Shown: one piece after another, positions 5,666 through 34,966 of the stretch
Layout: every line of letters begins with the position of its first letter
Numbering within the stretch: position 1 is the first letter of the stretch
Source: Symbiobacterium thermophilum IAM 14863
Lineage (GTDB): Bacteria; Bacillota; Sulfobacillia; Symbiobacteriales; Symbiobacteriaceae
Direction: 5' to 3'
NCBI RefSeq assembly: GCF_000009905.1
Contig: NC_006177.1
Location: 992,001 to 1,056,000 of the forward strand
DNA length: 64,000 nucleotides
The notes under the pieces: model-generated
The model's input: only the letters and a program-made list of their open reading frames with translations
The model's database searches: none
What the model was told of the DNA's origin: nothing
Program-made: the position numbers and the translations under genes

Positions 5666-10057
<4,392 letters not shown>

Positions 10058-26474: not shown

Positions 26475-28112
26475 TTGTCCCGCAAGCGGTCGCCTGGTGA
26501 CCCGTCTTCGGGGAACTGGTCCGAGGTGGTCCGGTTCCCGGCGACCGGGGCTGAGGAGAGCTTGGAGCAGGGGGGCGAGCCCCGTGGGGGCCGGCTCCGG
26601 GCGGGTGAGTCCCTGGGCCGCCGGTCTGGGGTCGTTCGGGCCCGGAAGGACAGGTCGCGGGATGGCCGCTCCCAGGGCGATGGTTCCCAGGCATATCCGT
26701 TCTGGGGCCGCTGGTTTCAGGGCGCTGGCTCCGGACAGGATGAGCTCCGGGGCGGGCGGTTTCAGGGCGCCGGTTCCCCGGTGGACGAGTCCCGGGGAAG
26801 CTGGTTGGGAGGCATTCGTTCCCCGGCGGGCCAGCCTCGGGACGGCTGGTCCCAGGGCGCGGGTTCCGGCCGGGATGGGTTCCGGGACGCTCGGTCCCAG
26901 GGCGCGGGTTCCGGCCGGGATGAGTTCCGGGGCGGCCGGTTCCAGGGCGTCGGTTCCCGGGTGGACGAGTCCCGGAGCGGCTGGTTTCAGGGCGTTCATT
27001 TCCTGGCGGGTCCGTCCCGGGGCGCCCGGCCCGCGCGGCTCCGGGTGTTGAGGCCGTCGGCTACAGGGGTTCGGATGGATCGCTCCTGGGGGGCATCCTC
27101 CCGGTCGGGCCGGTCCATCGTGGCCCTGCTCATCGCCGCGGCCTTCTTCGCTGCGCTCTGGCACGGCGGCCGCACCGAGCGGGTCGAGCGCACCGCCATC
27201 ATGATGGACACGTCTGTGCGCGTGGTGGTCTACGCCGGGGGCTGGGATGCCGAATCCGCCGCCGACGCCGCGATGGATTCGATTGCCCGGCTGGAGTCGC
27301 TGTGGCACCCCGGGCGCGCGGACAGCGATGTGTCTCGGATCAACGCCGCAGCCGGGGCGAAGCCAGTGGTTGTCGCGCCCGAGACGGTGGAACTCGTGCA
27401 GGCGGCGCTCCAGGTGGCCAGGGAGTCCCGCGGCGCGTTCGACCCGACCATCGGGCCGCTCGCGGCGGCCTGGGGATTCGGCGAGGGGGGCCGCGTGCCG
27501 GACGCGGCCGAGCTGGAGGCAGCCCGGGCGCTGGTGAGCTGGCGCGACGTGCACGTGGACCCCGAGGCCGGGACCGTTTTCCTCTCCAGGCCTGGGATGC
27601 AGCTGGAGCTGGGCGCGGTGGCCAAGGGGTTCGCCGCCCGTCTGGTGCGGGACCAGCTGGCCCAGGCCGGCGTCCGGGCGGCGCTGGTGCAGCTCGGGGG
27701 CAGCATCGCGCTGCTGGGCGACCGGCCCGAGGGCGGGCCGTGGCGCATCGCCGTCCAGCACCCGCGGGATCCGCAGGGCTACATCGCCACGCTCTCGCTG
27801 GACGGGGGCTACGCCGACACGGCAGGCGACTACCAGCGGTACTTCGAAGCGGACGGCGTGCGCTACCACCACATCCTTGACCCGTCCACCGGCTACCCGG
27901 CCCGGGGGATGGCCAGCGTGACCGTGGTCGCCCCCCGGGGCGAACTGGCCGACGCCTACGCCACCGCCGCCTTCGTGCTGGGCATGGAGGGAGGGTATCG
28001 CTTCCTCGTGGAACGCGGCGTGGAGGGGCTCCTGGTGAGCGACGCCGGCGAGGTGCGCATGACCCCCGGCATGGCGGAGTTGGCGGAGCTGACGCAGGAT
28101 GCTGGATGGTAG
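26475..28112 (+). CDS. apbE: FAD:protein FMN transferase ApbE with an N-terminal repeat region
   Basis: The ApbE domain starts near residue 235. MMDTSVRVVVY, SDVSRINAAAG, FDPTIGPL, the LGAVAKGFAA and LVQLGGSIALLG segments, and DPSTGYPARG are present. It attaches FMN to threonine residues of RnfD and RnfG at the extracytoplasmic face, consistent with the membrane helix at about 213-227. Before that helix, residues 20-184 consist of eleven 15-residue units rich in Gly, Arg, Ser and Gln, which no ApbE needs. Start TTG 26475 has GGGAGGAG six bases upstream; ATG 27075 with AGGGG would omit the repeats and gives a conventional membrane-anchored ApbE. Which start is used cannot be decided here. Confidence 0.85.
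   Translation: MSRKRSPGDPSSGNWSEVVRFPATGAEESLEQGGEPRGGRLRAGESLGRRSGVVRARKDRSRDGRSQGDGSQAYPFWGRWFQGAGSGQDELRGGRFQGAGSPVDESRGSWLGGIRSPAGQPRDGWSQGAGSGRDGFRDARSQGAGSGRDEFRGGRFQGVGSRVDESRSGWFQGVHFLAGPSRGARPARLRVLRPSATGVRMDRSWGASSRSGRSIVALLIAAAFFAALWHGGRTERVERTAIMMDTSVRVVVYAGGWDAESAADAAMDSIARLESLWHPGRADSDVSRINAAAGAKPVVVAPETVELVQAALQVARESRGAFDPTIGPLAAAWGFGEGGRVPDAAELEAARALVSWRDVHVDPEAGTVFLSRPGMQLELGAVAKGFAARLVRDQLAQAGVRAALVQLGGSIALLGDRPEGGPWRIAVQHPRDPQGYIATLSLDGGYADTAGDYQRYFEADGVRYHHILDPSTGYPARGMASVTVVAPRGELADAYATAAFVLGMEGGYRFLVERGVEGLLVSDAGEVRMTPGMAELAELTQDAGW
26532..27026 (+). repeat. Tandem array of eleven 45-bp units
   Basis: When read in the apbE frame the region gives eleven 15-residue units of the type W/R-F/S-Q-G-A-G-S-x-x-D-E-x-R-G-G, at residues 20-184 without length change. 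The two best units, at residues 125-154, differ at few positions. Because the unit length is a multiple of three, several frames stay open, so openness alone does not prove translation. Confidence 0.85.
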
Positions 28113-29397: not shown

Positions 29398-29836
29398 ATG
29401 GTGCGGATTCCGTTCCGTGAGGTGATCGGGGCCCAGGTGGTGGAGGCCGGGCATGGGCGGAGCACCCTGCGCATGCAAGCCAGTGAGCACACGCAGAACA
29501 ACATGGGGATGGTGCACGGCGGGGCGCTCTGCACGCTGGCCGACGCGGCCATCGGCACGGCGCTGCGCAGCGCGCTGAAGCCCGGTGATGCGATCGCCAC
29601 GATCGAGATGAAGATGAACCGATCGCACCGGGCCGCGGCAGTCTGTTGGCCCGGGCCCGCGCCCTGCACGTCGGCGGAACCACGGCGGTGGGGGGGTGGA
29701 GATCGAGGATCTCCAGGGCAGGTTGGTGGCGAAGGGGCTTGCGACCTTCTACCTGAAGCGCGCGGCGGTGGAGCCGCGGCCCGGGGCACGTACGGCGATG
29801 ATCCCGGAGGTGGACGGCCCCGAACCGGAAGACTAG
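29398..29836 (+). pseudogene. PaaI-type hotdog thioesterase, two frameshifts
   Basis: Three frames together encode one hotdog-fold thioesterase. ATG 29398 (site AGGGAGAG upstream) gives NNMGMVHGGALCTLADAAIG, the PaaI active-site segment, up to IEMKMN near 29619. The next segment is in another frame (IAPGRGSLLARARALHVGG). A third frame from 29696 gives VEIEDLQGRLVAKGLATFYL and ends at TAG 29834. Restoring one base near 29620 and one in the GGGGGG run near 29691-29696 would give a 146-residue protein, normal for PaaI. Either the gene is dead or there are two sequencing errors. Confidence 0.8.
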
Positions 29837-30888
29837 ACCGCCGCCTCTTGTCTGACCGCGGCCCGGTAGCGCTGCGAGTGGCGGAGGAGCGCCTGATACA
29901 CATACCGCTCTTCGTCCGGGAGGTCCCGGAGCGGGACGCCCGCCTCACGCAGGAGCTCCGCCAGGCGTCGGAAGCTCAGGTCGGGCGGATGGACTTCGAT
30001 CAGCCTGATCCCCGCCGCCTCGCTCAGCTGCCGCTTCAGCCGGTCCCGCTGCTGCTGCCGCTGCAGTTCGGCGGCGTCCGGGAACCGCTGGGTGACGCGG
30101 CTGTGCTGGGGTCCCTGGTACTCCAGGGCCACGCTGTACTTGGGAAGGAACAGGTCGAACTGCATGCGCGCGCCGGTCTCGGGGTTGTCCAGGCAACTGG
30201 CAGCCCCGTTTTCCAGTAAGACCGTGCCGGTGAGCATCTCGACCATGCGCGCCAACAGGAACTGCCCGAAAGAGTAGGCTCTCCACTGCTGGACCAGCGA
30301 CTTGCTCTTCTCGAACTTCGCCAGCGCGGCGAGGCGCCGGCTCTCCGCCGGGTTGCTGGCTGTCAGGTCGAAGGCCTTCCGCCGCCCGACCCGGCACGTC
30401 GTTCCCGTAAGATGTCCCTTCTCCTGCAACACCCGCAAGTACTTGGTCAGGCTGTTGTGGCAGTACCCGGTCAGTTGGATGAGCTTCTGGTAGCTGAAGC
30501 GCCGGCCCAACCGCCGGATGACGCCCCACACCCACCTGGCCGCGTGCGGCAGGCTTCGGTCAAGCAGGAGGTCGTCCGTCAGCACGATGTACCTGCACGA
30601 CCTGGGCCAGAGGGGCTGCACCTCCACGGTGCGGCCGGACCGGGTGTACTGCAGCCAGAGCTTGCGGGACAGCGCCTCCAGATGCCGGAGCAGGCTGTGC
30701 TGGCTCAGTCCCGTCGCCCGCCGAAGCTCGGCGAAAGTGTACTTCGTGCACGTCGTGCGGGTCATCCAGAGGAAGCACCACAGGTAGCGGGCGCCCTCCG
30801 TCAGACCGCGGTCTCTCCAGAGGAGATCCGGCACACGGACGTCCAGCGGCCTTTTCTGGTGCAGGCGCGCGTTCGCCAACGCCTCCAT
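29833..30888 (-). CDS. Double winged-helix protein with a C-terminal nuclease-like domain
   Basis: A 351-residue protein that I cannot name. Residues about 25-90 and 110-175 each read as a winged-helix DNA-binding domain (FAELRRATGLSQHSLLRHLE and KLIQLTGYCHNSLTKYLRVL are the recognition parts). Residues about 235-300 contain GARMQFDLFLP followed by VALEYQGPQHS. That is a D...E-x-Q pattern like the PD-(D/E)xK fold of Vsr/DUF559-like endonucleases, with Q in place of K. Plain start ATG 30888 follows GGAGGGG. The gene ends by overlapping the stop of the convergent PaaI pseudogene by 3 bp. Its upstream side faces the 37-bp repeat array. Nuclease activity is inference. Confidence 0.7.
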   Translation of the reverse strand: MEALANARLHQKRPLDVRVPDLLWRDRGLTEGARYLWCFLWMTRTTCTKYTFAELRRATGLSQHSLLRHLEALSRKLWLQYTRSGRTVEVQPLWPRSCRYIVLTDDLLLDRSLPHAARWVWGVIRRLGRRFSYQKLIQLTGYCHNSLTKYLRVLQEKGHLTGTTCRVGRRKAFDLTASNPAESRRLAALAKFEKSKSLVQQWRAYSFGQFLLARMVEMLTGTVLLENGAASCLDNPETGARMQFDLFLPKYSVALEYQGPQHSRVTQRFPDAAELQRQQQRDRLKRQLSEAAGIRLIEVHPPDLSFRRLAELLREAGVPLRDLPDEERYVYQALLRHSQRYRAAVRQEAAV

Positions 30889-30926
30889 GACCACCCCTCC
30901 GGCCTACTCCATTCGGCACCGAACAT
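30801..30926 (-). other. Possible leader reading frame over the nuclease gene start
   Basis: ATG 30926 on the minus strand is preceded five bases upstream by AGGAGGAG, a better ribosome site than that of the nuclease-like gene. It opens a 41-codon frame that overlaps the beginning of that gene in a different frame. The Trp/Arg-rich peptide resembles nothing known. It may be a chance frame or a translational leader. Confidence 0.3.
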
Positions 30927-31126
30927 ACAATCTCCTCCTGTTCTGGATATGTTTGCCTCACCACGGCGGGTCGTCGGCGCGCGGTGCGCCCGAGGAAACG
31001 CACAAGTCTTTGGAGCCAGGACGGGATGGGGTGGGGTCTGGTGCCTCCTCAGGCTATCATCGATGTGCACGAGGCCATGGTTCTGCGATGAGTAGATATG
31101 TCAGCAGGCACGACTGCCAGGAAGAA

Positions 31127-31161
31127 GGCAGATGACCGCGTGAATAACGGGGTCATCTGCC
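31127..31161. repeat. Perfect 11-bp inverted repeat
   Basis: GGCAGATGACC and its exact complement GGTCATCTGCC are separated by 13 bases. There is no T-tract, so a terminator is unlikely on the plus strand. It lies in the gene-free stretch between the nuclease-like gene and the 37-bp array; function is unknown. Confidence 0.6.
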
Positions 31162-31276
31162 ATGTGGGACGTCTTCCTCGGGTGCTCGGCTCACAAGAGT
31201 TGCCAGATTGGCTCTCGGTTTCCCTCGGCCGGCGTGGACCAAGGGCTCACTTGTCGCACGGCTGGCCTGAACCCGT

Positions 31277-31560
31277 GCTCGCAAGCTGCCGTGTCCGGAT
31301 TGCCTGAAGCTGGGTTCGCAAGCTGCCGTGTCCGGATTGCCTGAAGCTGGGTTCGCAAGCTGCCGTGTCCGGATTGCCTGAAGCTGGGTTCGCAAGCTGC
31401 CGTGTCCGGATTTCCTGAAGCTGGGTTCGCAAGCTGCCGTGTCCGGATTGCCTGAAGCTGGGTTCGCAAACTGCCGTGTCCGGATTGCCTGAAGCTGGGT
31501 TCTCAAGTTGCCGGGTCCGGGTTGCCTGAAGCTGTGTTCTCAAGTTGCCCTGTCCGGGGC
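31277..31560. repeat. Tandem array of eight 37-bp units
   Basis: Unit starts are exactly 37 bp apart at 31277, 31314, 31351, 31388, 31425, 31462, 31499 and 31536, the last unit being incomplete. The core is GCAAGCTGCCGTGTCCGG followed by ATTGCCTGAAGCTGG. The middle units are nearly identical, and the right-hand ones drift (CTCAAGTTGCC). There are no spacers. A degenerate partial unit precedes the first. No gene with a ribosome site covers the array. Confidence 0.92.
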
Positions 31561-32007
31561 GGTGGGCAAGCTCGGGCGGAGGGAGAGGCGGAGGTGCTTG
31601 CATCGACTCGGGGGAGACAGCGGCGAGCTGGGTCGACGACAGATGGCAGCCGCGGTCCCAAGCGGATGTGTGGGGGGCAGTTCGTTTGAGGCAGCTCTGC
31701 GAAACGCGTAAGTCTTGGGAGTTGATCTGGCGGAGGGGGAGTGTGGCGGGGCCCATGGGGTGCGTGCGGGTGACTCTAATTGCGTTTCCGGGGATGCATG
31801 AAGCAGGGGGGCTGCAGGAGGCCGGGATGCCGCTGCATGCGCCCCTCCTGTGTCTGCTCACACGATCTGCGAGTCTCGCTCCTTGCCCGCAGCATCACAT
31901 AAATATTTGCAGCACCAGATCATCTCGCTTGACCCGAAGGGGCTCCACAGGCCTTCCTTCCCACGATCTGCGACTTTCCCCAGTGCCCGGGTCCGGGCTC
32001 CGAAACG
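31561..32007. other. Gap without a convincing gene
   Basis: No reading frame here has a recognisable product. Two similar segments beginning CACGATCTGCGA occur near 31859 and 31963, separated by an AT-rich piece with AAATATTT. Together with 30889-31276 this makes over 1.1 kb without a gene apart from the tandem array and an inverted repeat. Confidence 0.5.
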
Positions 32008-34293: not shown

Positions 34294-34710
34294 CTGCGGC
34301 GCTGGCGAAGCGGGGGCTGGCGCGCTGGCGGGAGGCTGCCTGCAGCGCAGGCGAGACGTAGCCTGGAGTGCTCGCGGTGCGCAACTCGGCGCTCGCGAAG
34401 CGCGGCCTGCAGTCCCTGCGAGGCGAGGCCTGTGGCGCTGGTGAGACGTAGCCTGTGGCTCTAACGCTGCGCATCTGCGGCGCTGGCGAAGCGGGGCCGG
34501 AGGCACAGGTGAGACGTAGCGCGCTGCGCTGGCGGTGCGCAACTCGGCGCTCGCGAAGCGTGGCCTGCAGTCCCTGCGAGGCGCTGCCTGTGGCGCTGGC
34601 GAAGCGGGGCCGGAGGCGCAGGCGAGACGTAGCCTGTAGCACCGGCGGGTCGCAGCGGCGGCGCTCGGGAGGCGTAGCCTGCGGCACCGGCGAGGCGCGG
34701 CCTGCGGCGC
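34294..34710. repeat. Degenerate tandem array of about eighteen 23-bp units
   Basis: Reading from 34294, most units are exactly 23 bp, a few 21 or 22. They follow the pattern CTG-Y-R-GCGC-Y-GGCGA-R-R-CGTAGC; clear examples are CTGCAGCGCAGGCGAGACGT and CTGTGGCGCTGGTGAGACGT, each plus AGC. A higher-order copy exists: 34374-34425 and 34532-34583 are identical over 52 bp except for one base, offset 158 bp. The array lies between the S9 peptidase start and the ECF sigma gene. Frames across it are open only because of the GC-rich repeats. Confidence 0.88.
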
Positions 34711-34966
34711 CCTGCACACGGGGAAGGGCGAATGCAGCGCGGGTGCCCACACGGCCGCGAAGGGCCGGTGAACGACGGCGAGGGCGAGTGAGGCCGAACG
34801 GCGGAGGAAGAAGAACCCGCATCAAGGAAACGGGCGCGGATGAAACGGGACAGCCCGCTGCCCCCGTCTGTCTTGGTGAAAAGCGGCTGAGGCAGGTACG
34901 GGGCAACTGCGTGGCGTAAACCTTCGTCAAACAGAGGATTCGATCCACTCGAAGGGAGACGCCTCG
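34711..34966. other. Upstream region of the ECF sigma gene
   Basis: About 250 bp with no convincing gene. The only recognised element is the ECF-like promoter at 34904-34928; the ribosome site AAGGGAG lies just before the sigma gene. With the array and 34203-34293 the gene-free stretch totals about 760 bp. Confidence 0.5.
34904..34928 (+). promoter_or_regulatory. Possible ECF-sigma autoregulatory promoter
   Basis: CAAC and CGTC are separated by 17 bp, similar to the AAC / CGT(C/A) pattern of ECF sigma promoters, 39 bp upstream of an ECF sigma gene. ECF sigma factors commonly control their own operon, which is the main support. Confidence 0.35.

Follow-up and report, generated by a model that had tools for sequence, protein, structure and literature searches.

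In the chromosome of Symbiobacterium thermophilum (G000, a single contig of 3,566,135 bases), one gene of the 64,000-nucleotide stretch that we analysed, referred to as the window, belongs to a multicopy family of predicted nucleases, and cognate palindromic arrays of this family are dispersed genome-wide. This is the main point that emerges beyond the view of a single window. We consider that the genes and arrays probably make up a nuclease-driven repeat system that resembles RAYT/REPIN in its working and is unrelated to it in descent, apparently a selfish repeat system that does without the known transposase. The association between nucleases and repeats is much safer than this causal reading.

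A predicted double winged-helix nuclease and its family

The window gene occupies 29836–30894 on the minus strand and encodes 353 amino acids, with a GTG start at 30894 or an ATG start at 30888 and a stop codon at 29833–29835. No curated protein family matched the protein above its cut-off; Pfam returned weak matches to DUF2726 (residues 255–304) and to helix-turn-helix families. Sequence searches of the nuclease domain against solved structures gave nothing useful, and its likeness to Vsr and I-Bth0305I emerged only by structural comparison of a predicted model (mean pLDDT 75, ~90 in the nuclease core). In this comparison, residues 11–101 matched the N-terminal domains of RepA_N plasmid initiators (Z 9.7), with the predicted winged helix 1 at approximately residues 20–95 (30610–30837, minus strand), and residues 106–182 matched MarR/TFE winged helices (predicted winged helix 2, 30349–30579, minus strand). 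Residues 202–321 matched Vsr over 110 residues (Z 8.9, 3.3 Å) and residues 208–320 matched the I-Bth0305I catalytic domain over 92 of 97 residues (Z 8.8, 2.2 Å); these Z values are moderate, and the I-Bth0305I match spans nearly the whole of its domain. The predicted Vsr/EDxHD-homing-endonuclease-like domain (29932–30288, minus strand) carries the conserved residues D247, E258, Q263, H264, R283, D284 and K287 and was matched in PHROGs by phrog_9084, ‘homing endonuclease’ (E 3e-12). The initial annotation had proposed two winged-helix domains followed by a nuclease-like C-terminus; the predicted model bears out the former, and the latter coincides with the predicted nuclease fold, in which the segment D247...E258-x-Q260 is present.

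Seven diverged paralogues occur in S. thermophilum, the other six being 28–43% identical to the window copy. The family, unnamed in curated libraries, was found by profile search in 40 of 154 genomes of the class, with at most 12 matches each, and is present in 30 of 398 genomes of the phylum; relatives are built from one or two winged helices and the nuclease. Within the C-terminal domain, 37 relatives show no variation at D, E, G, H, T, D, K and L; of the E-D-H-D set, D, H and D are constant, and the position following the conserved G is occupied by E in many members and by Q in the clade of the window protein. In comparisons of orthologues from different species, dN ranged from 0.14 to 0.33 and dS from 0.59 to 1.19 (window gene and its orthologue in G002, another genome of the genus: dN 0.32, dS 1.11), and this excess of dS indicates that the genes of the family are under purifying selection.

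A related nuclease domain is common on viral contigs, some of which add one short helix-turn-helix match; the double winged helix was absent from the viral-contig matches. At phage loci L117, L125, L107 and similar ones, proteins of ~214–226 aa combine a helix-turn-helix match with the same nuclease domain. An origin of the whole protein from a plasmid or phage was considered and rejected, as tblastn gave no match and plasmid DNA gave none.

Cognate arrays beside the genes and across the genome

Five of the S. thermophilum paralogues lie directly downstream of tandem arrays, and a sixth lies 1.4 kb away. Around other family genes of the genus, tandem arrays were found ~100–400 bp upstream, each with a different unit of 75 to 250 bp (cis arrays at L039, L040, L042, L043, L044, L046, L047, L051, L052, L055, L056 and L057). 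At L041 the upstream distance is 1.4 kb, and a transposase gene (~8180–9530) separates this family C array from the nuclease start; no recognisable upstream array was found at L038 (G000), L049 (G002) or L053 (outside the genus). A spaced palindrome, its arms ~11–20 bp long, is present in most cis units. In the 800 bp upstream, the most frequent 11-mer reached at least 4 copies for 11 of 20 family genes of the genus and at most 3 copies for all 178 control genes of S. thermophilum. Only one palindromic long-period array (family B, defined below) was encountered in 400 kb of evenly sampled genome; such arrays are thus rare, and their association in cis with the family genes is not background.

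The cis units of S. thermophilum match many other places in its chromosome, mostly at 70–85% identity. We examined 20 further intergenic loci, comprising 18 tandem arrays and two single units. These trans loci have ordinary genes as neighbours, the 10 kb surrounding each of them contains no member of the family, and some of the arrays sit between convergent genes. The trans loci sort into four palindrome families, each corresponding to one cis array: A (L042), B (L043), C (L041) and D (L039). Near-identical group II intron reverse transcriptase genes adjoin arrays of families A and B (L241, 5732–7351; L249, 3387–5006).

The pairing of half-sites follows a fixed geometry. In family B all 49 neighbouring pairs, from ten loci and with the two single units included, had a head-to-head distance of 33 bp; in family C all 26 pairs, from five loci, had one of 24 bp. 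The distance from unit to unit in family B varied by locus, with spacing classes of 41–42, 51–54 and 73–74 bp that are close to whole helical turns, and with one pair at 107 bp. Constant pairing combined with variable unit distance is as expected from a locally duplicated dimer site. The arms within units did not covary (family B, p = 0.245; family C, p = 0.856), which favours DNA sites over RNA hairpins; selection for an RNA hairpin was rejected on this ground.

Enzyme presence tracked the cognate repeats across the three genomes of the genus that we compared. Orthologous nucleases of two species have the same palindrome (family C, L041/L051; family D, L039/L047) or a closely similar one (family B, L043/L056), and paralogues within one genome have different palindromes. 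Nucleases A–D are missing from the sister species G001, where A–D units gave no significant match, a co-absence drawn from three genomes; the cis units of the G001 nucleases at L052 and L055 recur in G001, and S. thermophilum gives one weak L052-like match. G002 has nucleases C and D together with many C and D units. Another tandem array family, with a motif near GGTTCTGTTCG, occurs in G001 (L052, 17243–18209; L055, 3513–4071; L278, 1782–3180).

Orthologous places differ in whether, and with which family, they are occupied. Between the same neighbouring genes, L254/L279 holds 995 bp in S. thermophilum compared to 10 bp in G001; the corresponding lengths are 1435 bp and 117 bp at L243/L267 and 1550 bp and 336 bp at L240. 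At L255/L282/L281 there are 5.5 family C units in S. thermophilum, one in G002 and none in G001. A family A site in S. thermophilum corresponds to one family C palindrome in G002 (L242/L265), and a family B site to family C (L248/L276). Judged from sequence, these empty, single-unit and swapped sites fit the arrival of a single unit followed by local amplification, and at any one of them units may have been lost.

The initial annotation had proposed a check of whether homologues also neighbour repeats, and this association was found in the genus, in the class and outside the class. Beyond the genus, scoring the strongest inverted repeat within 350 bp upstream of each gene proved a weak measure, and we used the count of half-sites instead. 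Upstream counts were above controls in the class excluding the genus (p = 0.003), and outside the class the half-site link was seen for 10 of 20 family genes compared to 7 of 53 controls (p = 0.002). In G043, which belongs to another family of the class, half-site GTTCGGGTAAAAATTGAAC is found upstream of the nuclease gene. It recurs in four elements of ~230 bp that are dispersed, resemble one another closely and have the same half-site layout; a contig end cuts one of the four. Several arrays outside the class have palindromic units of ~32–34 bp, and one of this type in G466 is flanked by ordinary genes, the 20 kb examined there containing no member of the family. As many family genes outside the genus have no repeats (L053, L168, L171, L183 and others), the link there is common, not universal.

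Upstream region of the window gene

A segment of ~2.16 kb containing the nuclease gene, a tandem array and candidate half-sites (29837–31997, ends approximate) is absent at the orthologous place in G001, where matches to the thioesterase and the S9 peptidase stop 27 bp apart. The mobile-element function suggested in the initial annotation fits such empty orthologous sites. A target-site duplication was sought at the window junction and yielded a 9-bp repeat alone, which is not convincing; neither a target-site duplication nor a common element end was found.

The same annotation had put forward a 37-bp tandem array and an 11-bp inverted repeat as possible binding sites. Both exist, the array at 31265–31557 (7.9 copies, 94% match) and the inverted repeat, GGCAGATGACC-13-GGTCATCTGCC with a 13-bp spacer, at 31127–31161, and at the level of the family upstream repeats exceed chance. 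Their proposed role was not supported: the 37-bp unit lacks a palindrome, differs from the repeats beside the closest orthologue and has no second copy in the genome, which rules it out as a dispersed repeat, and a binding role for the inverted repeat was unsupported. The 37-bp array thus appears atypical, and better candidate sites lie within 31191–31980. These sites, which resemble the repeats in the array of the G002 orthologue (L044), are a candidate half-site TCACACGATCTGCGAGTCTCGC (31858–31879, plus strand), a second candidate with 3 mismatches to motif TCACACGATYTGCGAGTYTCGC (31959–31980, plus strand), and two weaker candidates with 5 mismatches each (31699–31720, minus strand; 31191–31212, plus strand).

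Allowing up to 6 mismatches, motif TCACACGATYTGCGAGTYTCGC gave four sites in the 64 kb, all within the window segment, compared to 4 per 400 kb for the control. Because the motif was derived from window sequence together with a single G002 site, its fair support comes from the matches with 4–6 mismatches in each unit of the G002 orthologue’s array. At up to 3 mismatches, the only matches in S. thermophilum are two, each in cis, and 0 were obtained with the reversed control pattern; the window copy accordingly resembles a family member of low copy number. At the same threshold G001 has an inverted pair 104 bp apart, and G002 has one lone copy at the peptidase locus, where the contig ends (C225:86763; L309, ~2700–2960), the G002 orthologue of the window nuclease being on another contig, C141.

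Three further features of the window were recorded. The thioesterase gene beside the nuclease (29398–29836) apparently needs two frame changes, near 29620 and at a G run near 29690, and appears to be a pseudogene or to contain a sequence error. Repeats of 45/90/135 bp lie at 26704–27029 inside the open reading frame 26475–28112, ahead of its ApbE-like part, and a G+C-rich repeat of 23/113/158 bp lies at 34294–34711 between the S9 peptidase gene and a sigma-factor gene.

Proposed mechanism, alternatives and known systems

We propose that the window gene is one member of a multicopy chromosomal endonuclease family, in which every nuclease would act as a dimer that binds a spaced palindromic DNA site of its own. 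A half-site of ~15 bp would be read by the two winged helices, and two nuclease domains would meet over the spacer. The autonomous unit would consist of a nuclease gene and its upstream sites, and the same palindromes between other genes would be non-autonomous copies. A nick or break at or near the sites may lead to recombinational repair that seeds single units at new places, where they would expand into tandem arrays, the filler sequence being homogenised locally. A dsDNA homing-endonuclease-like enzyme would take the place that an HUH transposase holds in RAYT/REPIN. Both the dimer site and the idea of amplification draw on precedents: I-Bth0305I forms a dimer on a target nearly 60 bp long (PMC3943268), and the homing endonuclease SegB is needed for tandem amplification of phage T6 DNA (PMC13096335). 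We infer binding, cutting, and nuclease-caused spread and amplification from the association and its geometry. A point against the proposal is that unrestrained cleavage at dozens of chromosomal sites would be toxic. The chances are about even that the pairs represent a new class of selfish DNA, in which palindromic satellites are spread and amplified by site-specific dsDNA nucleases independently of transposases, with several distinct pairs per chromosome.

The main rival to a nuclease-driven repeat system is a host role, in which chromosome-organising or regulatory DNA-binding proteins would use the arrays as phased platforms and the nuclease would act rarely or otherwise. Such a role agrees with purifying selection on the genes, with the ~32–34 bp periods of arrays outside the class and with the cis position, which would suit autoregulation, and the near-helical spacing of family B could mean a structural nucleoprotein role. 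However, the array families and their positions differ between species of one genus, several arrays sit between convergent genes, and the nuclease residues are invariant; on balance we regard a host platform as unlikely. We find it more doubtful still that the arrays are moved by another enzyme, such as an undetected transposase or RAYT, with the nucleases merely sitting in the arrays or guarding against them. While group II intron and transposase genes are also present at array loci (L241, L249, L257 and L041), each cis array represents a separate family, and in three species the occurrence of these families goes with that of the nuclease genes.

Two further readings place the nuclease in other kinds of system. 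ToxIN has tandem repeats directly upstream of its nuclease gene, as do the loci described here, and transcribed arrays could produce hairpin RNAs that guide or inhibit the nuclease, as in CRISPR or type III toxin-antitoxin systems; nevertheless, the arms of the units do not covary (p values above), Rfam gave no match at the window locus and trans arrays stand alone among unrelated genes, leaving an RNA role highly improbable. We attach equally little weight to a function in defence or restriction, with the genomic palindromes as by-products or decoys. Related nuclease domains are common in phages, but PADLOC gives weak winged-helix matches only, and the arrays would accumulate the putative target in the host’s own chromosome.

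Until now, dispersed palindromic repeats in bacteria have mainly been explained by RAYT transposases. The pairs described here join an unrelated enzyme family to its own cognate repeats, with several distinct pairs per genome and in several bacterial classes, and we found no description of such a pairing in the open-access literature, subscription papers being outside our scope. They provide a naturally occurring collection of nucleases matched to long DNA sites, a case in which to test how bacterial satellite arrays originate and expand, and winged-helix nucleases that bring new specificities.

Compared with known systems, the family resembles RepA_N initiators and their iterons in its winged helix 1 and in having repeats beside the gene, and differs from these replicons in its nuclease domain, its chromosomally dispersed repeats and the lack of a plasmid match. 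It is unlike ToxIN-like type III toxin-antitoxin systems in that no ToxN family, and likewise no Y1 transposase family, occurs among the Pfam matches of 37 members, and in that its arms do not covary. With EDxHD or Vsr-like homing endonucleases such as I-Bth0305I it shares the predicted nuclease fold and, as its sites suggest, a long dimer target. Unlike I-Bth0305I, however, the family is chromosomal and multicopy and lies outside any intron or intein, its sites persist as arrays rather than being destroyed by insertion, and its DNA-binding part differs; membership among EDxHD homing endonucleases holds for the predicted fold only.

The closest parallel in working is RAYT (TnpA-REP) with REP/BIME/REPIN, in which an enzyme is tied to its own dispersed family of extragenic inverted repeats (PMC2817692, PMC3116915, PMC8266576) and enzyme number correlates with repeat number (PMC2817692). 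As in RAYT/REP, enzyme and repeats co-diverge, an enzyme-bearing strain has its repeats, and the repeats cluster in arrays. In contrast to RAYT, the enzyme pairs winged helices with a Vsr/EDxHD-like domain instead of being an HUH tyrosine transposase, as judged by Pfam and predicted fold, and its sites lie upstream of the gene, whereas RAYT sites lie on both sides. The repeats also differ from REP in having no GTAG foot (GTAG/CTAC near half-sites in 1 of 116 in family B, 10 of 207 in A and 9 of 64 in C). The two arms of a unit agreed no more than expected, which gives no sign of hairpin selection and may set the units apart from REP hairpins. None of the components is homologous to RAYT/REP, and a stricter view could describe the nuclease-array pairs as a non-homologous version of enzyme-linked repeats.
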